Positions 2,523-50,448 of a stretch of 50,597 nt of DNA are shown here, one piece after another. This DNA comes from Flavobacteriales bacterium. GTDB lineage: Bacteria > Bacteroidota > Bacteroidia > Flavobacteriales_C > GCA-002722245. The stretch is taken from contig JAQXEE010000145.1 in the NCBI GenBank assembly GCA_029251005.1, positions 1 through 50,597 of the forward strand, written 5' to 3'. A program made the position numbers and the translations under genes. A model generated the notes under the pieces. It searched no databases and was not told where the DNA came from. It worked only from the letters and a program-made list of their open reading frames with translations. Position 1 is the first letter of the stretch, and every line of letters begins with the position of its first letter.

Positions 2523-3386
2523 ATGAGAAAATTAATAATAATTCCTGTTTTAATATTTCTTTTGGGGTCTTGCAAAAAGGACAAGATCGAATATATATCT
2601 GGAAATACACCGCCGCCCGACTTTACAGTTGAAACAGTAGTGAAAGAAAACTATGTGAATAAACTTTACATCTCTGTTTTGGGTAGGCAAGCTACAGATA
2701 TTGAGTATTCCGAGGGTTTAAAACTCGTTAATGAAAGCGATTTAAGTGAAACAGGGAGGTTAGAGCTCATCTCAAGTATTATGGATAAGGAAGATTATTT
2801 CCATAATGAATATGAAACAATTCGTGAAGACCTCCTGGATGGAGTGGATACATCTGAGGTGACTAAGTACAAAAAGATATTAATCGATTCGAAAGAGCGA
2901 ACCGATGATCAAGATTTAATTAATAGTTACGATTCACTCATTAAAAATTTAGATCTGATACTTGAAATAATTCCTGGACTAGAGAATAATGCGTTTAATT
3001 TTGTAGAAGTCCAAAGAAGATGTGTAGACAATTATTTGTACGATAATTTAAACATGGGGTCGGAGAATTTTGTAGTTTCAATGTATCAAAATTTTTTGTT
3101 TAGATATCCGACTTCACAAGAAATTATATCAGCAGTTGATATGGTTGATGGAAATCAAAATGTTGTAAATTTTGAGATTGGAAGATCGAAAAGAGATTTC
3201 CTTAAAATATTCTTTTCCAGTGATGAATATTTAGAGGGTCAGGTAAGAACTGCCTTTATTAGGTTTTTATTTAGAGAACCCAACGTTGAGGAATTATTTC
3301 ATATGAAAGTTTTGTACAAAGCGGATTTGGAATTTAAATCACTGCAAAAAAGAATTTTAATATTAGATGAATATGTTGGTATATAA
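2523..3386 (+). CDS. lipoprotein with repeated 'Y..vLgR.pt..E' modules (DUF1549/DUF1553/DUF4214-like)
   Basis: Lipobox LLGSC; repeated motifs YISVLGRQATDIE, YQNFLFRYPTSQE, FIRFLFREPNVEE; first gene of operon with DUF1501. Confidence 0.7.
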   Translation: MRKLIIIPVLIFLLGSCKKDKIEYISGNTPPPDFTVETVVKENYVNKLYISVLGRQATDIEYSEGLKLVNESDLSETGRLELISSIMDKEDYFHNEYETIREDLLDGVDTSEVTKYKKILIDSKERTDDQDLINSYDSLIKNLDLILEIIPGLENNAFNFVEVQRRCVDNYLYDNLNMGSENFVVSMYQNFLFRYPTSQEIISAVDMVDGNQNVVNFEIGRSKRDFLKIFFSSDEYLEGQVRTAFIRFLFREPNVEELFHMKVLYKADLEFKSLQKRILILDEYVGI

Positions 3387-3873
3387 AAACAATAAAAGTA
3401 TATCTCTGCTATTAATTATTATAGTATTGTTTGCATGTAGTAAGGATGAAAAGGAATATGTTTATCAAATTGATGAGGTTGAAATATCTCAAGCAGGTGC
3501 TGAAAAACCAAATGTAAAAACGAGTACTGAATATATATCCATAGCATATGCAGATGTTTTCGGATCTAACGTTCCAACTAATCTATTGGAAGATTTAAAA
3601 AAAATTTACGAATCATTTGGAGATAAAGGTGTTGCTGAGGATTTAATCATAAAGAATTTCTTGAATGACAATTCAGTTCAAATCCCAACTAATCAAGAAA
3701 TGGAAGAAAACATCAGTTTATTTGTTACAAACGCTTATAAAAAAGTGTTTAATAGAGCGCCTAATGAGGCTGAATTATGGTTTTTAAAAGATTGTATCGA
3801 AAAGGATTCGAACATTTCTCCTGAGGTGGTCTATTACGCCTTGATGACTTCAAACGAATATCGTCAGTTTTAA
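3367..3873 (+). CDS. lipoprotein with PSD1/DUF1553-like C-terminal module
   Basis: Lipobox LFAC; AYKKVFNRAPNEAELWFLKDCI...VVYYALMTSNEYRQF; overlaps previous gene by 20 nt. Confidence 0.65.
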   Translation: MNMLVYKNNKSISLLLIIIVLFACSKDEKEYVYQIDEVEISQAGAEKPNVKTSTEYISIAYADVFGSNVPTNLLEDLKKIYESFGDKGVAEDLIIKNFLNDNSVQIPTNQEMEENISLFVTNAYKKVFNRAPNEAELWFLKDCIEKDSNISPEVVYYALMTSNEYRQF

Positions 3874-3874
3874 T

Positions 3875-5191
3875 ATGAAAAGAAGAGATTTTATTAAAAA
3901 AGCAGGATTAACAGCTGCGGGAGCAGTAGTTGCTCCATACATATTGCCTTCGGGTAGATTGTTTGCGGCAACTGGAAATAGAAAAGTAAATCATGTTGTA
4001 TTTTGCATGTTAGCTGGAGGTATTAGAAACAATGAATCGGTAAAACAACAAGAAGGTAATTTAATGTCCACGATGTTAAAAGATGTTAGTGGAGGATATG
4101 CCGAAGAACCTGGGTTTTTGAATGTCGGTGATATTTCAGCAAATCCATTAGGAGGAAGACGACTACAAGAGTTTGGATCTTTGTTAAAAGACGTTCGTTT
4201 TGCCGAAGGTCCAACAGGGCACTATAATGGTCATATAACAGCTTTAACTGGAAGGTATACAACTGCGAACTTAAATTTAAGATCGAATCCTGACTATCCT
4301 ACAATTTTTGAATATTATAGAAAACATGCAGGAGATAGTGCTATGAGCGCTTTAAATGCATGGTGGATTTCTGATTCATTAGGGCCTTATCCGAGTTTGA
4401 ATTACAGTTCCTACCCCGGTTATGGTGCCGGTTATGGTGCAAATTTTATGCAGCCTAGTTCTTTAATTAGTAACAAGGGGTATAATGCAATTGGAAACTC
4501 GCTTAATTTTACGGCTGATGAAAAGTTATCGACTGAGAAAATACGGAGTTTTTGTGATGGTAATTTTGCCGCTCAATTTTCTGCAGAATCGGTAGGTGTT
4601 GTGAATTCAATAACTGAACGGGAGCAATTAGAATTGTTTTTAAACGAGTTGTTTAATGACAGTATTTCTGGTGCTGACTTTCTAAACTGGGGTGTTTCTG
4701 GTTGGGTAAATAGTGACCTTACAAATGTATATTATACAGAGAAAGTTTTGGAGAAGTTTAAACCTGAACTGACTGTTTTAAATTTACAAGCAGTAGATAT
4801 TTGTCATTCCAATTTCACAAAATATTGTAATAATTTGGTTAAAGCAGATTGGGGCGTTTCTCATTTATGGAATTTTATTCAATCAACACCGGGATTAGCA
4901 AATGATACAGTAATGATCGTAATGCCAGAACACGGGAGGAATTCTGAACCAAATACGGTTGTAGATGCATACGGAAGGCCAGCTTACGATCATACAAGTG
5001 ATGATAATTCGAGAGAAGTTTTTTCGATGATTTTGGGGCCTTATAATGTTATTAAACAAGATCATGAAATTTCTTCTTTATACGGAGAGAGTATTGATAT
5101 AGCACCAACTATTGCCAATTTATTAGGTTTTGATGTTGATATTCCAAGCGGTTTATTACCGGGTAAAGTTCTAACAGATGTATACGCTTAA
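3875..5191 (+). CDS. DUF1501 (alkaline-phosphatase-superfamily-like) protein with Tat signal
   Basis: RRDFIKKAGLTAAGAVVAPYI twin-arginine signal; LNLQAVDICHSNF, MPEHGRNSEPN and DIAPTIANLLGF motifs. Confidence 0.85.
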   Translation: MKRRDFIKKAGLTAAGAVVAPYILPSGRLFAATGNRKVNHVVFCMLAGGIRNNESVKQQEGNLMSTMLKDVSGGYAEEPGFLNVGDISANPLGGRRLQEFGSLLKDVRFAEGPTGHYNGHITALTGRYTTANLNLRSNPDYPTIFEYYRKHAGDSAMSALNAWWISDSLGPYPSLNYSSYPGYGAGYGANFMQPSSLISNKGYNAIGNSLNFTADEKLSTEKIRSFCDGNFAAQFSAESVGVVNSITEREQLELFLNELFNDSISGADFLNWGVSGWVNSDLTNVYYTEKVLEKFKPELTVLNLQAVDICHSNFTKYCNNLVKADWGVSHLWNFIQSTPGLANDTVMIVMPEHGRNSEPNTVVDAYGRPAYDHTSDDNSREVFSMILGPYNVIKQDHEISSLYGESIDIAPTIANLLGFDVDIPSGLLPGKVLTDVYA

Positions 5192-6155
5192 CACGATGAG
5201 GTATTTAATAGTATTATTTTTTATTGCTAGTTTGATGGGTTGTAACAAGGAGGATGATTCACCAACAAATCCTTTCGATTCGGTTGATTATAGTGATGGA
5301 GTAAATTCGGTAGATACTTTAGATCCTAATGGGATTGTTTCAATTCATCGAGATATTATTTTACCTAAATGTTCAACTCCGGGTTGCCATGATGGGACGT
5401 TCGAACCAGATTTCAGAACGGTAATGTCATCCTACTCAACGCTGGTATATCATCCTATAATTAAAAATGATCCAGACACTCAATTTATGTTCAGAGTCGT
5501 TCCATTTGACACAACAATGTCTGTTTTACAAAAGCGTTTAAATTGGAAAACATTTGCAAATACAAACGATCGAATGCCTCAAGATAATATTGGTACGGCG
5601 TTACCAAAAGAGGACTTGGATAGGGTTAGTAATTGGATTTTAAACGGAGCTCCTGATCCGGACGGAAATGTGGCTATACTTCCCAATCAAGAACCTAAAA
5701 TAACTTCCCTCTGGATTATCGAAGGTGCTAGTGATGTGAACACAATTTGGAACAATCCAATTAATAGGTTATCATCTACTGAGAATAGGGTTGGTAGTGC
5801 TTGGTATGGTTCATCTATTTTAGATACGGCTATGTGGTTGTTTATTATTCCGGGAGTAGAAGATGATAGTACTGCTATTGATGACCTAGTTGATATGGAA
5901 TTGAGGTTTTCATACGATAAAGATGATTTTAGTAACCCCCTAAAGACTTTAACACCGTTGTTGACTTACAATAAAGACAATTGGTATTTTAATTTTAAGT
6001 TGGATAATACATTCAATACAGAAACCGTTGTTTATACTAAATTGTATGTGAACGATGGAGATCATTCAGATGATACGCACTATCCACGTTTGGATTCTCA
6101 TGAAGGAATTAAATTAAACTGGAGTTTTATAATTATTAAAGGAAGCCAGCAATGA
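5178..6155 (+). CDS. cytochrome-c-like (PSCyt1-type) lipoprotein with CX4CH motif
   Basis: Lipobox LMGC; ILPKCSTPGCHDG then NDRMPQDN...LDRVSNWILNGAPD (possible Met axial ligand and typical WI..GA tail). Confidence 0.7.
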   Translation: MYTLNTMRYLIVLFFIASLMGCNKEDDSPTNPFDSVDYSDGVNSVDTLDPNGIVSIHRDIILPKCSTPGCHDGTFEPDFRTVMSSYSTLVYHPIIKNDPDTQFMFRVVPFDTTMSVLQKRLNWKTFANTNDRMPQDNIGTALPKEDLDRVSNWILNGAPDPDGNVAILPNQEPKITSLWIIEGASDVNTIWNNPINRLSSTENRVGSAWYGSSILDTAMWLFIIPGVEDDSTAIDDLVDMELRFSYDKDDFSNPLKTLTPLLTYNKDNWYFNFKLDNTFNTETVVYTKLYVNDGDHSDDTHYPRLDSHEGIKLNWSFIIIKGSQQ

Positions 6156-6598
6156 GGAATATAAATAAGCTAATCTTAACGCTGCTGTTGATTTGTGTTA
6201 TCTTTTCATGTAAAAAAGATACTGAGAAATTTGCGAATATCCCATCATTAGAATTTGTGAAAATTACACCAAGCGTAGCTGTTGAGTTTGTGGACGAAGT
6301 GAAAATAACAGTACTATACAGAGATAAAGATGGTGATTTAGGAGAGAACGATCCTGAGGTTAAGAATTTATTTGTAACTGATAATCGAAATGATGTTGAA
6401 TATAGCTTTCGAATTCCAAATCTTACGCCAGAGGGTAGTGAAATTGCGGTTGAAGGGAACTTTGAAATTAATTTAAAAGTATTGTCTGTGTTTGGTGATC
6501 AAGAAGAGGAGTCTGCTGATTTTTCAGTTTATATTTTAGATAGGGCTCTAAATCAAAGTAATTCGGTGACTACCGAAACGATTACCGTAAAAAAATAA
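6152..6598 (+). CDS. small lipoprotein with Ig/Big-like fold candidate
   Basis: Lipobox IFSC; ATGA overlap with upstream stop; YRDKDGDLGENDPEVKNLFV pattern. Confidence 0.65.
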   Translation: MRNINKLILTLLLICVIFSCKKDTEKFANIPSLEFVKITPSVAVEFVDEVKITVLYRDKDGDLGENDPEVKNLFVTDNRNDVEYSFRIPNLTPEGSEIAVEGNFEINLKVLSVFGDQEEESADFSVYILDRALNQSNSVTTETITVKK

Positions 6599-6639: not shown

Positions 6640-7287
6640 ATGGGAAACGAAATGTCTTCAATAGAGGTGTCGGCGAACCTTAGAAAGCCAGAAGGAAAGA
6701 ATGGTTTGAAAGTTGCCGAGTTTATGAATAAGGTGAATGCCAACTTTTATATTCAGCTTCAAAAAAATGTGGAATGGAAACCAGGAATGAAGATTTTAGA
6801 AATAGGCTTTGGAAATGCCAATCACGTTGATGATATTCTTTTAAATTCATCCAATGCTGAATTTACAGGTGTTGATTATTCCAAAACGATGGTGGATTTA
6901 GCGAGAGAGAACAACCCTGATTGTACGTTTTTTCATAAAGATATTATGGGATTAGATTTAGCTGGAGAGCAGTTTGATTTAATTTACACGATTAATACCG
7001 TTTACTTTCTGGATGATTTAAAAGGAGCGTTTCAAAATCTTAAAAAGCATCTGAAACAAAGTGGTGAATTACATATTGGTAAGCGTCCAAAAGAAGATAT
7101 GACTAAGTTAAAAGATATTACCTCGAATGGTTTTATTGCTTATTCTAACGAAGAAGTTGTTAAAGCAGTTATGGACACTGGTTTGGATATATCGAGCGTA
7201 GTTTCTAGTAAGGACCCTGAAATGGAACGAAAAGGAGAAAAAATTCAATTACACACTGATTTTATAATTGCTATTCATGGAAATTAA
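6640..7287 (+). CDS. class I SAM-dependent methyltransferase
   Basis: ILEIGFGNANHVDDIL...FTGVDYS motif I/II; FDLIYTINTVYFL. Confidence 0.85.
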   Translation: MGNEMSSIEVSANLRKPEGKNGLKVAEFMNKVNANFYIQLQKNVEWKPGMKILEIGFGNANHVDDILLNSSNAEFTGVDYSKTMVDLARENNPDCTFFHKDIMGLDLAGEQFDLIYTINTVYFLDDLKGAFQNLKKHLKQSGELHIGKRPKEDMTKLKDITSNGFIAYSNEEVVKAVMDTGLDISSVVSSKDPEMERKGEKIQLHTDFIIAIHGN

Positions 7288-7618
7288 GGATTTACAAAAG
7301 GATGTTGACCATTGGATTAAAACCATTGGAGTTCGTTATTTTAATGAACTAACAAATTTGGCAATTCTTACTGAAGAGGTAGGGGAGTTGGCTCGTATTA
7401 TTAGTAGAAAATACGGAGAGCAATCCTTCAAGAATAAAGAGGAAGAAAATAATCTTGGAGATGAAATGGCTGACGTTTTATGGGTGTTGGTTTGTTTAGC
7501 AAATCAAACAGGTGTAGACTTAGAGGAGGCTATTAAACGCAACATCGAAAAGAAAACATTGAGAGATAAGGATCGACACAAAAACAATGACAAGCTTTTA
7601 AAAGCTCAAAAAAAATAA
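7268..7618 (+). CDS. MazG-like nucleotide pyrophosphohydrolase
   Basis: LTEEVGELARIISRKYGEQ...LGDEMADVLWVLVCLANQTGVDLEEAI (EExxE...ExxD motif). Confidence 0.88.
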   Translation: MLFMEIKDLQKDVDHWIKTIGVRYFNELTNLAILTEEVGELARIISRKYGEQSFKNKEEENNLGDEMADVLWVLVCLANQTGVDLEEAIKRNIEKKTLRDKDRHKNNDKLLKAQKK

Positions 7619-14024: not shown

Positions 14025-15389
14025 TTATTTTTCAGAAAAGTATTGGAAAAAATAAGGAATTGTTTCTATTCCTTTGTAAAAATTAAATAATCCATAATGT
14101 TCATTTGGAGAATGAATAGCATCTGAGTTTAATCCAAATCCCATAAGTATTGTATTTGTTTTTAAAGCTTTTTCGAAAAAAGAAACAATTGGAATACTTC
14201 CTCCTTGTCTCACAGGAATAGGTTTTTTTCCGAATGTTTTTTCCATAGCTTGGCTAGCGGCTTCATATCCTTTGGAATTCAAATCAGTAACAGCAGGTTC
14301 TCCACCATGATGTACAGAAACTTTAACTTTTACGGATTTGGGAGCAATTTTTTCGAAGTGTTTTTTGAAGATTTCAGAAATATCCAAACTGTTTTGATCC
14401 GGCACCAATCGCATGGATATTTTAGCAAATGCTTTCGATGGTAATACTGTTTTTGCTCCTTCTCCTGTATATCCACCCCAAATTCCATTTACATCAAGTG
14501 TTGGTCTTATTCCAAGTCGTTCAGGAGTAGAATATCCTTTTTCTCCTTGCTCTTTTTCAATATCAATAGATTGTTTGTATTCCTCAAGATCAAAAGGTGC
14601 TCGTGCCATTTCAGCTCGATGTTCTGGACTAACTTCTAATACTTTATCATAAAATTCAGGAATAGTAATTTGGTTGTCTTCATTGGTTAATGAAGCAATC
14701 ATTTTACATAAGGTATTAATTGGATTCGCAACAGATCCACCATATGTTCCTGAATGTAAATCTCTATTAGGTCCTGTAATTTCAACCTCCATATAAGCCA
14801 ATCCTTTTAATCCCGCTGTAATGGAAGGGTCTTCGTTACTAAGCATATGTGTGTCGGAAATTAATATAACATCGTTAGAGAGCAATTCTAAGTTGTTATT
14901 TACGAAGTTTTCAAGGTTTACACTCCCAACTTCTTCTTCCCCTTCAATTAAAACTTTAATGTTACACGGAACTTCATTGGCTTCGATCATGCATTTCAAA
15001 GCTGCAAAATACATGTAGAATTGTCCTTTATCGTCGGCAGCACCTCTTGCATAAATTTTATTATCCTTTATTACTGGCTCAAAAGGAGGACTTGTCCATA
15101 ATTCAATTGGATCAGCAGGCTGAACATCATAATGACCATAAACCAAAACAGTAGGTAGGGAGTTGTTTATGATTACCTCTCCAAATACTATTGGATGACC
15201 TGGTGTTTCAAAAAGTTGTATGTTGGATAATCCTATTTTATTCATAGAGTTCTTCACCCAATTAGCACAATCTCTTGTGTCTTTATCGTGCTTAGAATCC
15301 GCACTGACGGAAGGAATTTTTAAAAGCTCAACTAAGTTGTTTAAAAATTCATCTTTCCTTGCTTCTATATTTTGTTGTGTATTCTTCAT
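14025..15389 (-). CDS. M20/M25/M40 family dipeptidase
   Basis: VYGHYDVQPADPIELWTSPPFEP, YARGAADDKGQ, EGEEEVGS motifs. Confidence 0.92.
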   Translation of the reverse strand: MKNTQQNIEARKDEFLNNLVELLKIPSVSADSKHDKDTRDCANWVKNSMNKIGLSNIQLFETPGHPIVFGEVIINNSLPTVLVYGHYDVQPADPIELWTSPPFEPVIKDNKIYARGAADDKGQFYMYFAALKCMIEANEVPCNIKVLIEGEEEVGSVNLENFVNNNLELLSNDVILISDTHMLSNEDPSITAGLKGLAYMEVEITGPNRDLHSGTYGGSVANPINTLCKMIASLTNEDNQITIPEFYDKVLEVSPEHRAEMARAPFDLEEYKQSIDIEKEQGEKGYSTPERLGIRPTLDVNGIWGGYTGEGAKTVLPSKAFAKISMRLVPDQNSLDISEIFKKHFEKIAPKSVKVKVSVHHGGEPAVTDLNSKGYEAASQAMEKTFGKKPIPVRQGGSIPIVSFFEKALKTNTILMGFGLNSDAIHSPNEHYGLFNFYKGIETIPYFFQYFSEK

Positions 15390-17042: not shown

Positions 17043-18557
<1,515 letters not shown>

Positions 18558-18599
18558 TCAATTGAGTTTTATAAATATTAGTTATACTAAATTTGGGCG

Positions 18600-18607
18600 C
18601 AAAGTTA
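18600..18607 (-). promoter_or_regulatory. candidate Bacteroidetes -7 box (TAACTTTG) upstream of atpD
   Basis: Minus strand TAACTTTG matches TAnnTTTG; no clear -33 TTG. Confidence 0.4.
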
Positions 18608-18655
18608 TGTAATTTTCTTTTATTAAAGTAATTATTATTGATAAATTTAATTCCT

Positions 18656-18663
18656 TAATTTTG
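18656..18663 (+). promoter_or_regulatory. candidate Bacteroidetes -7 box (TAATTTTG) upstream of ribF
   Basis: TAATTTTG matches TAnnTTTG; TTG 15 bp upstream (spacing shorter than usual). Confidence 0.4.
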
Positions 18664-18710
18664 CTTCAGTATTTAGTAATCATATTTGGATATAGAGAAA
18701 GTATAAAGAA

Positions 18711-19643
18711 GTGGAGGTATATAGAGGTCTTTCTGAGTATTTACCAGCTAAAAATGCTGTTGTTACAACTGGTACATTTGATGGTGTTCATGTTGGACAT
18801 AAAACAATTATAAAAAATCTGAAGAAAGTTGCCACCGATTTTGATGGGGAGACTGTTTTGGTGACTTTTCATCCTCACCCAAGACTTGTTCTCGAGGAAG
18901 ATTGTGATTTAAAGTTGTTAAGTACTATAGATGAACGGATTGAATTACTGGAGAAAGAAGGTGTTGACCACTTAATTATTATTCCTTTTGATAAAGAGTT
19001 TTCGCGGATGAGCTCGATGGAATTTGTTCGCGAAATTTTAGTTAAACAAATAGGAACCCAAAAATTGGTAATTGGATATGATCACCACTTTGGAAGAAAT
19101 AGAGAGGGTTCTTTTAGTCATTTACTTGAGTTTGGTCCTCTGTACGGTTTTGAAGTAGAAGAGATTCCAGCTTTTGATGTAAACCATGTTAATGTAAGTT
19201 CAACCAAAATTAGGGAAGCATTAGAATTAGGAGATATTGTAACCGCTACTAAATTTCTAGGACAGCCTTATAAGGTTTCCGGAGAGGTTGTTAAGGGAGA
19301 GCAATTGGGTAGATTAATCGGTTATCCAACAGCGAATATCAAAGTCAAGCAAGCCTATAAATTAATTCCTCAACAAGGTGTTTATGTAGTTGGTGTAACA
19401 ATTGGTAAGGAACATTTGTTTGGGATGTTGAACGTGGGAGTTCGGCCAACCGTTAGTGCAGAAAAAGAGGTTTCTATTGAGGTGAATATATTTGATTTTG
19501 ATCAAGACATATATGGAAGTCAGATTGAAATAGATTTTATCAAGCACATTAGAAACGAAATTCAATTTGACAGCGTTAATGAATTGAAACTACAATTGGA
19601 ACAAGATTTGTTTTTATGCAAGAAAATTCTAACAAAAGTATGA
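18711..19643 (+). CDS. ribF: bifunctional riboflavin kinase/FAD synthetase (GTG start)
   Basis: VTTGTFDGVHVGHKTII; VGYDHHFGRNREG-type motif; GEQLGRLIGYPTANI; GVYVVGV. Confidence 0.95.
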   Translation: MEVYRGLSEYLPAKNAVVTTGTFDGVHVGHKTIIKNLKKVATDFDGETVLVTFHPHPRLVLEEDCDLKLLSTIDERIELLEKEGVDHLIIIPFDKEFSRMSSMEFVREILVKQIGTQKLVIGYDHHFGRNREGSFSHLLEFGPLYGFEVEEIPAFDVNHVNVSSTKIREALELGDIVTATKFLGQPYKVSGEVVKGEQLGRLIGYPTANIKVKQAYKLIPQQGVYVVGVTIGKEHLFGMLNVGVRPTVSAEKEVSIEVNIFDFDQDIYGSQIEIDFIKHIRNEIQFDSVNELKLQLEQDLFLCKKILTKV

Positions 19644-32129: not shown

Positions 32130-35100
32130 GTGCGCAAAATAAGTTTAAAATATTTTGTAGTTTTTGTTTTTTGCTTGTCGGCATCTTTGTCGTCAAGCAA
32201 TCTGTATGCTCAAAAGTCTGATCCAAGTTTAAAAGCTCAAATTAAAGCAAGAAAGGAAGAATTAAAAGCGAAACGAAAAGCGAAAGACATTGAGCGTAAG
32301 AGAGATGATTTAGAATATCGTAAACTACTTCAACAGAAGGAAAAAGCTAAGAAATATAGACAACAACAACTTAAGAAGGAAGCTGGTTTAGCAAAAAAAT
32401 ATAGAGAACAACAAGAAGCTAAAAGGCAAAAAGATCTCCTAAATAAAAAAAAGGAAGAGCGTTCTAAGCAACAAAAAATAGCAGAGGAACAGGCAGAGGA
32501 ACAAAAAAGATTAGCAGAAGAAGCTAAAGAAGTTTTGCGCGAAAAAGCAAAAGAACAAAAACGGATTCAAGATGAGCTCAATGCCCAAAAGGATTTAGAT
32601 GCTTTAGAAAAGAGATTTAAAGACGAACAGGAAAAAGCAGATGAAATTGCTATTCAGAAGAAAAAAGCATTAGAGGAAAAAGAAAAGGCCATTCAAAAAG
32701 AACAAGATGATTTGGAAAAAAAGGCCACACTAGACCAAAAAAAGAATGAGCAATATGAAAAAACTAAAAATAATGCCCAAGTAGAAGTTGACGAAATAGA
32801 CTTAAAAAATAGTAAGGAGAAGTCAACGAATGAAGCTCAAACAGAAGCTCAAAAGAAAATAAAGAAAATTAAAGAGCAACGTGCTTCCGCTAAGATTAAA
32901 GTGGAAATGCGCATCAAAAAGGAGTTGCAAAAGAAACAACTTTTAGATTTAAGAAAAAGAACAGAGAACGCAATTCAAAATAGAAAAAGGTTAAAAGATG
33001 CAGCGAACAAACGAAAAAAATATGATCGAGAACGATTTAAAAAGGAGTTAGTTAAAATTAAAAGAGAAATTGAGAATAGGAGAGATATCGATGGTTTTAA
33101 GAGGAAGGCGCTCGCTAAAGAGCAAGAACTAAAACAAAAGTATCAGGATAAAATAAACAAAAAGAATGCAGACCAAAACGCTATTTTAACAACGAAAGAG
33201 CAAAATGTAGCTTTAATACAAGAAAAAATGGATAAGGCTGCTCGTAAAAGAGCTGAACTTCAGAAGAAGCTAGAAACGGAAAGAAATAGTGAATTAGCAA
33301 AAGAAGCTAAAAAGCTCGCTAATGCAGAACGCTTATTGGCTGAAGAGCAGAAAAAAGATTCTGATCGTCAGCGAAAAGAAGATGAAGATTTGATAAATAA
33401 GCTTAATAAATTTAAAAATATTGAGACCGCAAAAAAAGTAAAATCACAAGAAAAGAAAAATGATAAATTGGCGAAATTAGCCGAAATAGCAAGGAAAAAA
33501 GCTGCTGTAGCAAAGAAAAAAGCTGCTTTTGAGGAGGCTCAAAAGATTGCTTTTCAAAAGCGAGAAGAAGAAAAGAAAAAACAAGCTCAGGAAAAAGCTG
33601 TAATTGCCTCGGAGAAAGCAAGAAAAGATGCTGAGTTTGCTGATAGAATGAAAAAACGGGCCGAGAAAGTTGAAGGTCTAAAAGCGGAAGCTGATAAATT
33701 AAAACGTGCGATAAAGAAGAAAAAACTAGAAGGAAAAGCTAATAGAGATAAGTTAAATGAAGAGTTTTTATCAGGAAAAGATTCTTTAAACACAGTGAAA
33801 AAACAAGAAGTATCAAAAGATCAAATTGAAGAGAGAGAAAGGAAGGAAGGAAGCGACTTTTTATCAAGAGAGCAAAAGAAAAAACTTGAGCAAGAAGAAT
33901 TAGAACGTAAAAATAAAAAGTTGGAACGTGAGAAGGAACTAGAAATTCAAAAACTTGCGAATAAAGAAATTCAAAAACATCAAAAAGAATTAGAAAAAAA
34001 GGAAAGTGTTTATGCCGATTATCAGCGTAAGATTGAAGAGAAAGTAAATGATTCTAAAGAAAACTTAAAGTTGGTTAAGGAAGCAGAAGCAAAGGCGGAG
34101 AAGTTGGAAAAGGAAAAGTTAACTGTAAAGAGAAAACAATTATTAGAAAAAGAAAGTGAAGCGCAAAAGCGGAAAGCAAGTTTAGATAAAAAAATAGCTG
34201 ACAAACTAAAGCTTAAAAATGAGTTAGCTAGTAAAAAGGAGTCCTTAAGGCTAAAGGTTCAAGCTGAAAAAGATTCTTTAGATCAAGTTGATTTTTTGAA
34301 TAAACAACAAAAAGATTCGCTATTTGCTGTAAATAAGTTGAAAAAAGCAAAGGAGTTGGCAAGGAAACTTGAAGAAAAAGCAAAGATTAAAGCCCTGCTT
34401 GCAGCGGAAAAACTGAAAATCATCAAGGAAAAAGAAGCTCAGGAGAACAAAATAGCTGAAATTAATAGTCCGCTAGAGGAGAAGAAGAAGGCATTAAAAG
34501 AATCTGCTAATAAAGATAAATTGAAGAAAAGAGCAGAGAAGGTGATAGCTGTAAAAGTTGCCGAAAATTCTGAGAAAGATAAAACTACTGGAGTGACTAA
34601 TGTTAAACCATCTGAAGCTATTGCTTCAGATCCTAAAAAGCAGAAAACTGCCTTAGAATTAGAAAAGGAAAAAATAGCAAAAAGGGAAATAAAACGAAAG
34701 AAAGAGCAAACAGAAAAGCTCAAAGAAGCGGCAAGAAAAAAAGATTTAGGATTAGAGCAGGCTCAAATGGAACAGTTGAAAAGGCTTGCTAACAAAAGAG
34801 CTGAAGAAAATAAAGAAGCTCAAAAGGCAAAGCGGAAAGCGCTTAAAAATCAACAAAAAGAATTGAAGAGAGGGGCAAAGAAAAGAGATGCTCAAATGAT
34901 TGCTGATGCCAACAAAACTATTGATAAAAAGGCGGATAGCTTAGAAGAAAAGGTGGTTAAAGCGGCTGTTATTGATGAAGAGAAAAAACAAGAACGAGTT
35001 GCTGAAAAAAAAGCCTCTAGGTATGATGAAGTTGCTTCTGAATTAGCAAAGAATAATGCTCAAATTGAAAAGCAAGAAAAAGAAAAAACAGCAAAAGAGG

Positions 35101-38100
35101 AGAAAAAATTAAAGATTCTTCAAGACAAGGACGCAATTCGTAGAGCAAAATTAAAAGCGCGATTAAAGTTGAATGAAAATGTACAAGAGAATGAGACTTT
35201 CAAAGCAAAGGTAATTCGTGAATTCAATGAAGGAAAGGCCGTAACGGGACGAAAGAAAAAGCAAAAAGAATTCATTATTAAGGAGTACCAAAAAGAGGTT
35301 AAAAAGAAATTAGAAGAACAGGTTAAGTTGGCTGAAAAGAAGTTGGTTGAAGCAGAGAGAAACGCTGCAATTCAAAAGGAGAACCTAAAAGGATCTACCT
35401 CATCTCGGAACCAAATGTATGCATATTCTAAAAAGATTAAAGAATTAGAGGCTCAGTTGAAAGTTGAACAGGAATCTAAAGCTTTAGTAGAAGGTGGTTT
35501 AAATGAACTAAATGAATCTGGATTAACTGGGAATAATGTTGAGGTTGAACGGAATGAAAAAGAGACGAAAATTAAAGAGCGCGAGCTTAAAATTAAAGAG
35601 ATTGAGAAAGAGTTAGATAGATTACGAGAATTACACAAAAAATCGAAAAATAAATATTACGCAAGTAAAGCTAAGAATAAAGCTAAAAAAGATGCGGGTT
35701 TAGAAAACGTAAAAGAAAAGCTAGAAGCAGCTAAATTAAAGCGTGATTTCGCAAAGCTGGAAACACCAGAGCAACGAAATAGCAGACTTAAAATTGAAGG
35801 TGAAAAACGAAAGTTGTTAGCCAAAAAGCGAAAGCAAAGGTTGAAATTAGAGCGTAAGAAGGCAAAACTAGAAGCTCAAAGAAGGGCATTTAAAATAGCA
35901 GAGAAAGAAGCTCTTATTAGTGAGAAAGTCAAGTTAATTAGAAAAACACAAAAAAGGCAAGATTTAATTTTAAAAGATAAGGCACAGGCTGAATTAAAAG
36001 CAGAAAACGAAACTGCAGCTTTTAGAAAAGATAGTATCCGTAATGCGAATAAACTATTAGTAGAGAAGTTAAAGCGTGAAAAGGCTCAGAAGCAACGAAT
36101 TGACGAGTTGGTAAAGCTAGAAGATAGAGCTAGAATTGATGCTAAATTATCGAGTGAAGCTTTGTCTAAAGATGTGAAAAATAAATTACTCAAAGAACGT
36201 GCAAGGCTAAGTGGAGAACTAGATAAAATTGAAACGGAAAGGAATGCTGAATTAAAGAAAAATAATAGAGAAAAAATTAAGAAAAAAATAAGAAATGCTA
36301 AGGGTGAAAAGGTAAGCATTGCTAGAGATTCACTAAAACGTATTCTAGAGGAAAAGTCAGAAGTTGAATGGCAAAAAATTGCAAAGAAGGAAAAGATGTT
36401 ACTAGCAAAAAGTAAAGCTAAAAAACAAGCTTTAAAGCAAGTAAAGAAAGCTATTATTGAAAAGCAAAAAGAAAGTGGAAAGGTAACAGATGATGAGAAA
36501 TTAAAACAAGAAAAGGAAAAGTATCTAAAGGAAAAAAAGAGGTTAGAAGAAACTTTAACTGCTGCAAACAAGAAGGTTGAGAATAAAGATAAGATATTAG
36601 ATGTTGACTATGCATTGAAAATGAAAGACCTTAAAAAGAAAGCAAAACTTAAGGAGATTCGTGCGAAAGCTAAAAAGTATAAAAAAGAAGAGAAGCTTAA
36701 GAGTAAAGCCTTAAATAGTAAAAAGTTAAGTAAGGATGAAATAAGAATCATGGAATTGCGTGAGGAGATTAAGTTACTTGGAAAAGATATTGGAAGTACA
36801 CGAGAGGGTTTAAAAAATGCTAAAAATGAACTAAAAGCCATAAAGGAAAAAGGTGACGTTGGAGATGCAATTAAAGAGAACGTTTTGAATAGAAGAGTTT
36901 CTAAATATTCAGCTAAGGTAAAGACATTGTTAGAAGATTTAAAGCATAAGCAAGAAGAGTTAGATAAATTAATTGGAGCAAAGAATAACAAAGGAGCTGT
37001 TGCTAGTAAAGAAAAAACAGAAGATTTACTAAGAAAATTTCAGGCATCTGAAAAGCGCAAGGAACTACTTGAGAAGCGGAAGCAAAGAGTAAAAAACGCA
37101 GCGTTAAAAGCAAAATCAGCAAAAAATCAAACTGAACAAACCAAAAATGATCGTGAGGATAGATTGGATCAAATAGCAAAAGATCAAAAGAAGGAGTTAA
37201 GAGATGAAATAAAGGCGGCAAAAGAAGCACGTAAAAAGAAGAGAAAAGAATTTTTAGTAGAGCAAGAAAGATTAGAGGCAGAATTGAATGCACTGGCAGA
37301 TAAAGAGGCATTGGAAGAAGGTTTAGAAAGAGAAGTAGAAGATAGAAAAGAAGCTCTCGAACGTATTCAATCCAAGCTTTTAAAGAAGCTAAATAAGATA
37401 GACAAAAAGGAAAAAGATGATAAAGAATTTGAAGCTTTAGTTTTAGAAGAATTAAAGGAAAAGAAAGAGACTGAAGAGAAAAGAAGAAGGGAACAACGTT
37501 ATCTAGAAAAGAAAAAAATAGAGAACCAAGAGAAAGCCAAAATTGCAAAGAATAAAAAGAAAAATACTGATGATGAAGTCTATTTTAACGCCGAAGCTCA
37601 GAAAAGAAAAGTTTACACAGACAGTATTCGAAAAATAAATGCTGTATCAGTAGACGAGTGGACTCGTTTATCAGTAGATGCTCGTAAAAAGAAAGAGAGT
37701 AGAAGAAAAGATAAGAAAAAAAATGAATTAGCAAAAGAGTTGAGGCGACGCGAGTTAAAAGATCAGCGTAAAGTTGAAGCAGTAAAAAGAAAAGAGCTGG
37801 ATGCGGCTAATATTGAGTTGGCTGCGGAGTTAAAACGAAAAGCTGCATTAGATAGAAAAATAAATGCGGCAAAGAGAACAATAGAAGCATTAGCTATACG
37901 AAAGGAAGCTAAAGCGCTTTTAGAGGCAAAATTATCTAATCAAAGAAATGTTGAAGTGCGTTTAAAGGATTCTTTGAAGTTTGAAGCTCAAAAATTAGCT
38001 GAAAGACTAGTTCCTATAAAATCTGGGATTGAAACGATAGAACGCAGTAAAATTGATTTAGAGGGTGATATTTTGGATTTAAAGACTAGAGAACTTCCAA

Positions 38101-38852
38101 TTTTACAAGAATATCTCATAACCAATCAAAAATCAAAAAGTTTAAAGTACCAAAGTGAGCAATTAACGCATATCGAAAAAATAGAAATAAGAGCAAAAGC
38201 CACAAAGGTTGAGAAAGAAGCTTTAGAAATTAAATTAAGAGTCAAACAAAATTATTTGCTAAGATTAGATAAAGAGCGGCAATTAAATATTTACCGTCAA
38301 AAATTAGCTGTATTACAAAAGCGATTAGAAAACCTAGATACTACCAAAGTCGATGATAAGGAAATAAATAAAGTATTGTTAATTCAGTATAGTCAAATTG
38401 AAAAGGCTATTACTTCTGTAAAGGAAGAGATGGATAAAATTTCTGGTGATATTATAACAAAAGAGAAAGAATACAATGCTGATATTCAATTAGCTCAAAG
38501 CGAAAGAATAAAATTTGGAGAAGAGGAGAATAAAAAAAATGAAGGCAAATTAAAAGCAACAGAGTTAGCTGTTGAGATTGAAAAATTAAAAGCGCTTTAT
38601 AAAAATTCTAACACAGGAAGTAAGCAAGCAGATATTTTAAGGGAAATAGAAGCTTTTCAACGTCAATTACCGGAAGGTATACACGAAGAGATTTTGTATG
38701 AAAATAATAGGACTATTAAGAAGTATATAGTTTGTAAAGGAGGGAACGTTGATATATTCAAAATGGTAATGTATAGTTGGGGAACAACTTATTACTTTAA
38801 AAATAAAGTAGCGATTACTAAAATGAGGTTTGATACAGAAACAAAGTATTGA
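32130..38852 (+). CDS. giant exported K/E/A-rich coiled-coil/single-alpha-helix protein with small C-terminal domain (GTG start)
   Basis: 2240 aa uninterrupted ORF; signal peptide MRKISLKYFVVFVFCLSASLSSSNLYAQ; E/K/A/R heptad-like sequence throughout; C-terminal KYIVCKGGNVDIFKMVMYSWGTTYYFKNKVAITKMRFDTETKY. Confidence 0.85.
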   Translation: MRKISLKYFVVFVFCLSASLSSSNLYAQKSDPSLKAQIKARKEELKAKRKAKDIERKRDDLEYRKLLQQKEKAKKYRQQQLKKEAGLAKKYREQQEAKRQKDLLNKKKEERSKQQKIAEEQAEEQKRLAEEAKEVLREKAKEQKRIQDELNAQKDLDALEKRFKDEQEKADEIAIQKKKALEEKEKAIQKEQDDLEKKATLDQKKNEQYEKTKNNAQVEVDEIDLKNSKEKSTNEAQTEAQKKIKKIKEQRASAKIKVEMRIKKELQKKQLLDLRKRTENAIQNRKRLKDAANKRKKYDRERFKKELVKIKREIENRRDIDGFKRKALAKEQELKQKYQDKINKKNADQNAILTTKEQNVALIQEKMDKAARKRAELQKKLETERNSELAKEAKKLANAERLLAEEQKKDSDRQRKEDEDLINKLNKFKNIETAKKVKSQEKKNDKLAKLAEIARKKAAVAKKKAAFEEAQKIAFQKREEEKKKQAQEKAVIASEKARKDAEFADRMKKRAEKVEGLKAEADKLKRAIKKKKLEGKANRDKLNEEFLSGKDSLNTVKKQEVSKDQIEERERKEGSDFLSREQKKKLEQEELERKNKKLEREKELEIQKLANKEIQKHQKELEKKESVYADYQRKIEEKVNDSKENLKLVKEAEAKAEKLEKEKLTVKRKQLLEKESEAQKRKASLDKKIADKLKLKNELASKKESLRLKVQAEKDSLDQVDFLNKQQKDSLFAVNKLKKAKELARKLEEKAKIKALLAAEKLKIIKEKEAQENKIAEINSPLEEKKKALKESANKDKLKKRAEKVIAVKVAENSEKDKTTGVTNVKPSEAIASDPKKQKTALELEKEKIAKREIKRKKEQTEKLKEAARKKDLGLEQAQMEQLKRLANKRAEENKEAQKAKRKALKNQQKELKRGAKKRDAQMIADANKTIDKKADSLEEKVVKAAVIDEEKKQERVAEKKASRYDEVASELAKNNAQIEKQEKEKTAKEEKKLKILQDKDAIRRAKLKARLKLNENVQENETFKAKVIREFNEGKAVTGRKKKQKEFIIKEYQKEVKKKLEEQVKLAEKKLVEAERNAAIQKENLKGSTSSRNQMYAYSKKIKELEAQLKVEQESKALVEGGLNELNESGLTGNNVEVERNEKETKIKERELKIKEIEKELDRLRELHKKSKNKYYASKAKNKAKKDAGLENVKEKLEAAKLKRDFAKLETPEQRNSRLKIEGEKRKLLAKKRKQRLKLERKKAKLEAQRRAFKIAEKEALISEKVKLIRKTQKRQDLILKDKAQAELKAENETAAFRKDSIRNANKLLVEKLKREKAQKQRIDELVKLEDRARIDAKLSSEALSKDVKNKLLKERARLSGELDKIETERNAELKKNNREKIKKKIRNAKGEKVSIARDSLKRILEEKSEVEWQKIAKKEKMLLAKSKAKKQALKQVKKAIIEKQKESGKVTDDEKLKQEKEKYLKEKKRLEETLTAANKKVENKDKILDVDYALKMKDLKKKAKLKEIRAKAKKYKKEEKLKSKALNSKKLSKDEIRIMELREEIKLLGKDIGSTREGLKNAKNELKAIKEKGDVGDAIKENVLNRRVSKYSAKVKTLLEDLKHKQEELDKLIGAKNNKGAVASKEKTEDLLRKFQASEKRKELLEKRKQRVKNAALKAKSAKNQTEQTKNDREDRLDQIAKDQKKELRDEIKAAKEARKKKRKEFLVEQERLEAELNALADKEALEEGLEREVEDRKEALERIQSKLLKKLNKIDKKEKDDKEFEALVLEELKEKKETEEKRRREQRYLEKKKIENQEKAKIAKNKKKNTDDEVYFNAEAQKRKVYTDSIRKINAVSVDEWTRLSVDARKKKESRRKDKKKNELAKELRRRELKDQRKVEAVKRKELDAANIELAAELKRKAALDRKINAAKRTIEALAIRKEAKALLEAKLSNQRNVEVRLKDSLKFEAQKLAERLVPIKSGIETIERSKIDLEGDILDLKTRELPILQEYLITNQKSKSLKYQSEQLTHIEKIEIRAKATKVEKEALEIKLRVKQNYLLRLDKERQLNIYRQKLAVLQKRLENLDTTKVDDKEINKVLLIQYSQIEKAITSVKEEMDKISGDIITKEKEYNADIQLAQSERIKFGEEENKKNEGKLKATELAVEIEKLKALYKNSNTGSKQADILREIEAFQRQLPEGIHEEILYENNRTIKKYIVCKGGNVDIFKMVMYSWGTTYYFKNKVAITKMRFDTETKY

Positions 38853-49587: not shown

Positions 49588-50448
49588 ATGAACAGAGGAA
49601 ATTATTCCATCGAGATGATGTGTAAGGTTTTAAAAGTGTCAAGAAGTTGTTATTACAGATGGTTCACAGGTAATATTTCAAAACGAGACTTTGAGAACAT
49701 ACGATTAACGCAAGTGATAAAACAAGTTTTTAGCGAGAGTAAAGGAACTTATGGAAGTCCAAGAATAACAGCAAACTTGAAAAGGCAAGGTTATCTTGTT
49801 TCTAAGCCGAGGGTTGCTAAATTGATGCGTAAATCAGGCTTGAGAAGCAAAACAAAGAAGATGTATAGAGTGACCACTGATTCTAATCATGGTTATTCAA
49901 TATCAAAAAATCACTTGAGTAGAAACTTTAAACCAAAAGAGTTAAATGAAACTTGGGTATCTGATATTACTTACATCAAAACAGGACAAGGGTGGTTGTA
50001 TTTAACAACAGTAATCGATTTATTTGACCGACAAGTAATTGGTTGGGCGTTGAGTAAATCCTTATTTACAAAGGAAACTATCATTCCAGCCTGGAAAATG
50101 GCGTTGTCGAAAAGAAGCATTAATATGCCGCTGATTTTTCATTCGGATAGAGGTGTTCAATATGCAAGTAAAGAGTTTAGAAAGCAATTAAAAGCTAACT
50201 GTTTGATTATCCAGAGCATGAGTAGAAAAGGTAACTGTTGGGATAATGCAGTCGCAGAAAGCTTCTTTAAAACATTAAAGTCAGAATTAGTTTATCATGA
50301 AGATTACAAAACAATTGAACAGGCTAAAACAGCTGTATTTGAATACATTGAAACTTGGTACAACACCAGAAGATTACACTCTTCTTTGAATTATAAAACA
50401 CCTAAAGAAGTTGAATCAGAATTTATGAATATGAAAAACGCAGCATAG
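49588..50448 (+). CDS. IS3-family transposase OrfB (DDE integrase core)
   Basis: WVSDITYIKT...TVIDLFDRQVIGW; FHSDRGVQYAS; SRKGNCWDNAVAESFFKTLKSEL. Confidence 0.95.
   Translation: MNRGNYSIEMMCKVLKVSRSCYYRWFTGNISKRDFENIRLTQVIKQVFSESKGTYGSPRITANLKRQGYLVSKPRVAKLMRKSGLRSKTKKMYRVTTDSNHGYSISKNHLSRNFKPKELNETWVSDITYIKTGQGWLYLTTVIDLFDRQVIGWALSKSLFTKETIIPAWKMALSKRSINMPLIFHSDRGVQYASKEFRKQLKANCLIIQSMSRKGNCWDNAVAESFFKTLKSELVYHEDYKTIEQAKTAVFEYIETWYNTRRLHSSLNYKTPKEVESEFMNMKNAA

Follow-up and report, generated by a model that had tools for sequence, protein, structure and literature searches.

Organization and conservation of the five-gene cassette

The window analyzed here is the whole 50,597-nt contig JAQXEE010000145.1 of a Flavobacteriales bacterium (assembly GCA_029251005.1). 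Near its beginning lie five genes, called P1 to P5, which form a compact cassette coding for four lipoproteins and one protein with a twin-arginine translocation (Tat) signal:

2523..3386, + strand: P1 gene; 287-residue lipoprotein, all-helical, with three DUF4214/phycobilisome (PBS)-linker-like repeats
3367..3873, + strand: P2 gene; 168-residue lipoprotein with a single C-terminal DUF4214-like repeat
3875..5191, + strand: P3 gene; 438-residue Tat-exported DUF1501-like protein of the alkaline-phosphatase superfamily
5178..6155, + strand: P4 gene; 325-residue predicted heme lipoprotein with a PSCyt1-like cytochrome c domain and a C-terminal domain
6152..6598, + strand: P5 gene; 148-residue lipoprotein, probable beta-sandwich

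The P1/P2, P2/P3, P3/P4, and P4/P5 junctions are a 20-nt overlap, a 1-nt gap, a 14-nt overlap, and ATGA, respectively. The lipobox cysteine is residue 17 in P1, 24 in P2, 22 in P4, and 20 in P5, and it is invariant in each family alignment. The five open reading frames (ORFs), their overlaps, the lipoboxes, and the twin-arginine motif all lie where the first-pass annotation had placed them. In P4, an alternative in-frame ATG at 5196 is located immediately at the signal peptide (MRYLIVLFF...) and gives 319 residues. The start may be at this position rather than at 5178; the 14-nt overlap of P3 and P4 would then be a 4-nt gap. No promoter pattern of the Bacteroidota type was found upstream of the cassette (the window contains a single match to it, at another place, which is below the number expected by chance), and sigma-70-like sites upstream occurred at chance level only.

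When GTDB genomes were scanned with the P3 alignment, 339 relatives came up, of which 80 were kept for reading of the locus. The order P1-P2-P3-P4-P5 on one strand was observed in 65 of the 80 loci; nine were cut by contig ends, and six were true exceptions. The median intergenic gaps across loci were -4, 9, 1, and -1 nt. The genes recur in this order within the same taxonomic order and class, and the conservation proposed as a check on the first-pass annotation was found in many genera and families of environmental Bacteroidota; the named host records are mostly metagenome-assembled environmental genomes. Among 116 near-complete genomes of the class, 30 carry a total of 39 cassettes, which are of two types: 23 of type A, to which the cassette of the window belongs, and 16 of type B. 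Strong P4 and P1 matches in these 116 genomes adjoin P3 almost without exception. The exceptions are a decayed P3 (G012), a P1-P4 remnant (G077), and a P1 on another contig (G084). Weaker P3-like matches are present in other genomes of the sample. The distribution of the cassette is patchy, because only 2 of 248 genomes in a wider sample of the phylum gave a match at E<=1e-60. Cassette decay was observed at loci L210 and L211, in the form of an adjoining P1 and P4 that are both truncated, and of a P3 that lacks an internal part and stands without partners.

The protein distances of P1, P3, and P4 correlate with one another (r of 0.80-0.82, compared with at most 0.19 in permutations). Types A and B form separate groups in all five gene trees (support, 0.999-1.0); therefore, the cassette diverged as one unit. 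The five genes form a real unit, well beyond chance. That five unrelated lipoprotein genes became neighbors by chance might be argued from the domain matches, which are weak when taken one by one, but this is refuted by the gene order, the co-occurrence, the congruent distances, and the divergence as a whole. Given the order shared across many Bacteroidota, the five genes almost certainly form one machine, predicted to act at the cell surface.

Domains and motifs of the five proteins

P3 begins with MKRRDFIKK and scores above the NCBIfam cut-off for Tat signals; its own genome encodes TatC. The DUF1501 label given to P3 in the first-pass annotation holds in part. The P3 of the window had no match to Pfam DUF1501 (PF07394) at E<=1, and a search of its own genome for PF07394 found none. 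On the other hand, 19 of 78 P3 orthologues match PF07394 (best value, 3e-5), 29 of 78 match Phosphodiest, and profile-profile comparison with Bacteroidota DUF1501 proteins gave probabilities of 90% (local) and 96% (global) over the length of P3, compared with 0.1-5% when P1, P2, P4, and P5 were used; kinship thus exists at the profile level. The AlphaFold2 (AF2) model of P3 has a predicted local distance difference test (pLDDT) value of 84.6 and gave 448 fold matches in the PDB at E<=0.001 with Foldseek. Sulfatases, nucleotide pyrophosphatases/phosphodiesterases (NPPs), and LtaS-type enzymes are among the matches listed, in agreement with the alkaline-phosphatase fold that had been proposed for this protein. 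P3 is related to DUF1501, although divergent, and its model has the fold of the alkaline-phosphatase superfamily. The following features are found in its gene:

3875..3967, + strand: twin-arginine signal region, with a c-region (PYILPSGRLFA) that is near-invariant in the alignments
4220..4222, + strand: His116, invariant in 78/78, types A and B; presumed nucleophile position
4796..4807, + strand: D308-x-x-H311, invariant and presumed to bind metal; DUF1501 has its DTH motif region at this place in the alignment
4928..4939, + strand: E352-H353-G354-R355, invariant except for H353; aligned with SEFGR of DUF1501
4988..4993, + strand: D372-H373, invariant; aligned with TDHG of DUF1501

Position 353 is His in type A and Cys in type B. 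His116 appears to sit where sulfatases and NPPs have the Cys/Ser or Thr nucleophile, in a register taken from the spacing to a downstream TG motif and from knowledge of the family, not from coordinates. This motif is LTG in sulfatases and VTG in NPPs, and the DUF1501 motifs used for the register were SHF...TG and NHDP...TG. The weak P3 matches, including those at L009-L012, are metalloenzyme/phosphodiesterase-superfamily proteins of 314-350 residues and distant relatives of P3.

P1 is the sole cassette protein that reaches a Pfam cut-off: it matches DUF4214 (PF13946) with 28.5 bits (cut-off, 23.2). A match to DUF4214 at E<=1 is found in 59 of 63 P1 orthologues. Its repeat segments match each other at 89-94% profile probability. 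The best fold matches of its AF2 model (pLDDT 92) are phycobilisome linker domains, with Foldseek probabilities of 0.97-1.00 and E-values above 0.1; the root mean square deviation to several of them is about 2-2.5 Å over about 93 residues. The P2 of the window matches DUF4214 below the cut-off (3e-4), and a match to the domain is seen in 15 of 19 members of the P2 family. The profile probability between P2 and P1 is 89%. The possibility that P1 and P2 are a split DUF1549/DUF1553 was rejected: when their profiles were compared with those of about 20 PSCyt-PSD1 proteins, the probabilities were only 8% (P1) and 13% (P2), for a match of a single helix motif of about 30 residues. The PSD1 model gave weak matches in 19 of 63 P1 orthologues (best value, 3e-4), and those examples that were located span about 25 residues. 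The cassette proteins thus showed no detectable DUF1549 or DUF1553 domain; P1 and P2 are DUF4214/phycobilisome-linker-like instead. P1 might be a reduced DUF1800, to which it shows a weak resemblance (40% profile probability).

The N-terminal domain of P4 matches the PSCyt1 domain of PSCyt1-PSCyt2-PSD1 proteins at 97% in profile comparison. This bears out the earlier proposal of a heme protein linked to PSCyt1, except that the heme motif, labeled as CXXCH-type at that time, is actually CX4CH:

5370..5390, + strand: CX4CH heme-attachment motif of P4 (CSTPGCH); C, C, and H invariant in 70/70
5574..5576, + strand: Met133 of the RMPQ motif of P4; candidate axial heme ligand, invariant in 70/70

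From these motifs, P4 is predicted to be a monoheme c-type cytochrome with the heme covalently bound to CX4CH. Its own genome encodes a cytochrome c assembly protein. P4, its C-terminal domain included, has no Pfam match of its own; the C-terminal domain shows no homology to P5 or to the CUB protein described below and is without a known relative. The RMP...WI..GA stretch around Met133 weakly resembles FoxE (E-values of 0.009 and 0.088), in which Met is the distal heme ligand (PMC10654088). This similarity and the surface-type lipoprotein signal described below might point to a module for extracellular electron transfer or iron oxidation, in which P4 would move electrons across or onto the surface with P3 as an accessory. 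Such a role is very unlikely: the match to FoxE is a short motif and that to PSCyt1 is far better, P4 has one heme motif, and no multiheme cytochrome recurs among the flanking families counted.

P5 has no significant match to a known family. Its family alignment contains an invariant YxDxxGDxG motif, and the pattern of its sequence suggests a probable beta-sandwich of the Ig-like kind.

The surface lipoprotein signal defined experimentally in Capnocytophaga is C-X-K-(D/E)2-X after the lipidated Cys (PMC5080379). Lys at +3 is found in 72-88% of the N-termini of P1, P2, P4, and P5, compared with 27% in neighboring lipoproteins, and Asp/Glu at +4 in 34-85%, compared with 21%. Relative to neighboring lipoproteins, there is likewise an enrichment of Asp/Glu when +4 and +5 are both considered. 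In the window, P2 (CSKDE) and P4 (CNKED) fit the signal exactly, and P1 and P5 fit it partly. The description of the cassette as a surface operon is supported at the level of targeting signals: surface-type signals are enriched in these families. The location of P1, P2, P4, and P5 at the surface is predicted by resemblance to the Capnocytophaga signal.

Type B cassettes and relation to known systems

Type B is a paralogue of the whole cassette (loci L037-L042 and L198-L208), and nine genomes have both types. Eighteen type B cassettes were read. In 15 of them, the cassette is followed by a gene for a protein of about 1170 residues that contains CUB, repeat, PKD, and CHU_C domains and a type IX secretion system (T9SS) sorting domain (T9SS type B). 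This sixth gene overlaps P5 or starts within about 16 nt of it in nearly all of these 15; one small lipoprotein gene lies between the two in L040, and the P5 frame of L205 is hidden by the ORF filter. As for the remaining three, the CUB protein starts at the contig end in L041, the contig ends before it in L206, and another gene takes its place in L209. This association of type B with a CUB protein secreted by the type IX route tells as much about the cassette as the parallel with Planctomycetes does.

Two known systems share parts with the cassette. DUF1501-DUF1800 operons with Tat signals occur near bacterial chitin synthases (PMC5122149), and PSCyt/PSD genes occur near sulfatases, in Verrucomicrobia, and with carbohydrate-binding modules (PMC5615132). 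Both reports give these proteins without a known activity, and the literature search gave no relevant match on a Bacteroidota version of the module. In the DUF1501-DUF1800 pair (PF07394/PF08811), as in the cassette, the operon joins the gene for a Tat-exported protein of the alkaline-phosphatase type to that for a helical partner. Its DUF1501 protein and P3 have the D..H, E-x-G-R, DH, and His-before-TG motifs in common; however, P3 has R51 (GGVR) where most DUF1501 proteins of such pairs have Asp (GGND). Furthermore, the pair is without the lipoproteins P4 and P5, whereas the cassette has no DUF1800 gene adjacent to it and none in its own genome. The canonical pairs exist in Bacteroidota and occur separately in some cassette genomes, for example G011.

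In the Planctomycetes-type module of PSCyt1-DUF1549(PSCyt2)-DUF1553(PSD1) and DUF1501, which is also present in a minority of Bacteroidota, a PSCyt1-like domain adjoins a DUF1501-like Tat protein, as in the cassette. The cassette differs from it in that the parts are separate lipid-anchored polypeptides, in CX4CH instead of CXXCH, in the absence of detectable DUF1549/DUF1553, and in the additional P5 and the additional C-terminal domain of P4. The suggestion of a split version of this module is consequently retained for the DUF1501-like P3 and the PSCyt1-like P4, and dropped for DUF1549/DUF1553. The cassette has DUF1501-like and PSCyt1-like parts but no DUF1800, DUF1549, or DUF1553, and is therefore a related but distinct system. 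P1 resembles the DUF4214/phycobilisome linkers (PF13946, PF00427) in its score above the cut-off and its linker-like model; unlike them, it is a lipoprotein of the surface type, encoded in a fixed operon that has no phycobiliproteins.

A general neighbor conserved for all cassettes was considered and rejected, and synteny of the flanks exists only at the lineage level. The flanks also bear on a nutrient uptake locus of the polysaccharide-utilization type, for which the sulfatase-like fold of P3 and the Verrucomicrobia genes mentioned above would speak. The recurrent flanking families counted, the largest of which is an M20-type peptidase in only 21 of the 80 loci, included no recognizable SusC/SusD pair or glycoside hydrolase, and such a locus is very improbable.

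Possible function and surroundings of the cassette

The reading preferred here, which is held tentatively, is that the cassette forms one outer-surface complex in which P3 binds metal and has an anionic ester or glycan as its substrate, with a heme lipoprotein as partner. P3 would be exported via the Tat pathway, probably folded and metal-loaded. It would then act on a substrate with phosphate or sulfate esters; a glycan or glycoprotein that is secreted or displayed at the surface is the most likely candidate. P1 and P2 might serve as helical scaffolds of the DUF4214/linker type, and P5 as a beta-sandwich spacer or binding domain. The monoheme cytochrome P4 might supply or remove electrons, or sense the redox state, for the complex. 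P1, P2, P4, and P5 would be kept on the outer leaflet by their lipid anchors with surface-export-type signals. In type B, the complex would be made together with the type IX-secreted CUB protein and would probably act on it or hold it.

Several points weigh against this reading. At the nucleophile position, which is Thr/Ser/Cys in related enzymes, P3 seems to have His, and Ala47/Arg51 occupy the position of the N-terminal acidic metal ligand in the motif register; therefore, classical catalysis by P3 is doubtful. The large loci L100, L115, and L124 have P3 without P1 and P2, and two of them are without any partner. In type A cassettes, including that of the window, a type IX cargo gene is missing from the directly adjoining positions. 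Asp/Glu at +4 is found in only 34% of the P1 family, and the lipoprotein signal, which was taken from Capnocytophaga, may differ in this host. A heme beside P3 is no proof of electron transfer to P3, and the literature found gives none of the DUF1501, PSCyt1, or DUF4214 proteins a demonstrated substrate, activity, or interaction.

The first of these points also leads to another explanation, rather unlikely but not far behind the preferred one: P3 might be a catalytically inactive scaffold in a platform for attachment at the surface. In type B, this platform would carry the CUB protein as cargo, and the P4 heme would be structural or serve as a sensor. Besides His116 and the lost acidic ligand of the first strand, this would fit the resemblance of P1/P2 to phycobilisome linkers, themselves scaffolds, and the T9SS-sorted CUB protein that comes after type B cassettes. 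A scaffold, however, would not need D308, H311, E352, D372, H373, and H116 to be invariant in the 78-member alignment and in type B. The same set of residues recurs in DUF1501, and Tat export suggests loading of a cofactor. Conservation and domain assignments are well supported: the data show the unit with its gene order, the folds, the motifs, the targeting signals, and the neighbor of type B. Inferred from these are the formation of a complex, its place at the surface, catalysis with its substrate, and a redox role, so that the mechanism in the preferred reading is a reasoned guess. The boldest form of this reading is an undescribed class of redox-linked surface enzyme complex, in which a metal-dependent P3 with His for the nucleophile is kept on the outer leaflet by linker lipoproteins and coupled to a monoheme cytochrome lipoprotein, and in which the CUB protein is processed or anchored in type B; it is speculative and unlikely.

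DUF1501, DUF1800, and planctomycete-type cytochrome domains span several phyla, and the literature found assigns none of them a biochemical role. In this compact cassette, different proteins carry the PSCyt1-like and DUF1501-like parts, the number of partners is small, and one host, Phaeocystidibacter luteus LMG 25704 (locus L095), is a named strain; a long-standing question of function is therefore testable gene by gene. In addition, the link of type B to a secreted type IX protein offers a concrete candidate partner.

Near the type A cassette of the window, positions 7268-7618, 14025-15389, and 17043-19643 hold genes for a MazG-like pyrophosphohydrolase, an M20-type dipeptidase, AtpD, and RibF. 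The same neighbors are seen elsewhere: M20 in the flanks counted above, MazG beside three type B loci, and AtpD in several type B loci. Neighbors common to type A and type B loci suggest an ancestral locus where both types arose together.

A role in anti-phage defense was rejected, as there was no PADLOC match. Positions 32130-38852 of the window encode a protein of 2240 residues that is nearly all Lys/Glu-rich and coiled-coil-like, with a signal-like N-terminus. At the contig end, positions 49588-50448 hold an ORF for a transposase of the IS3-family type.

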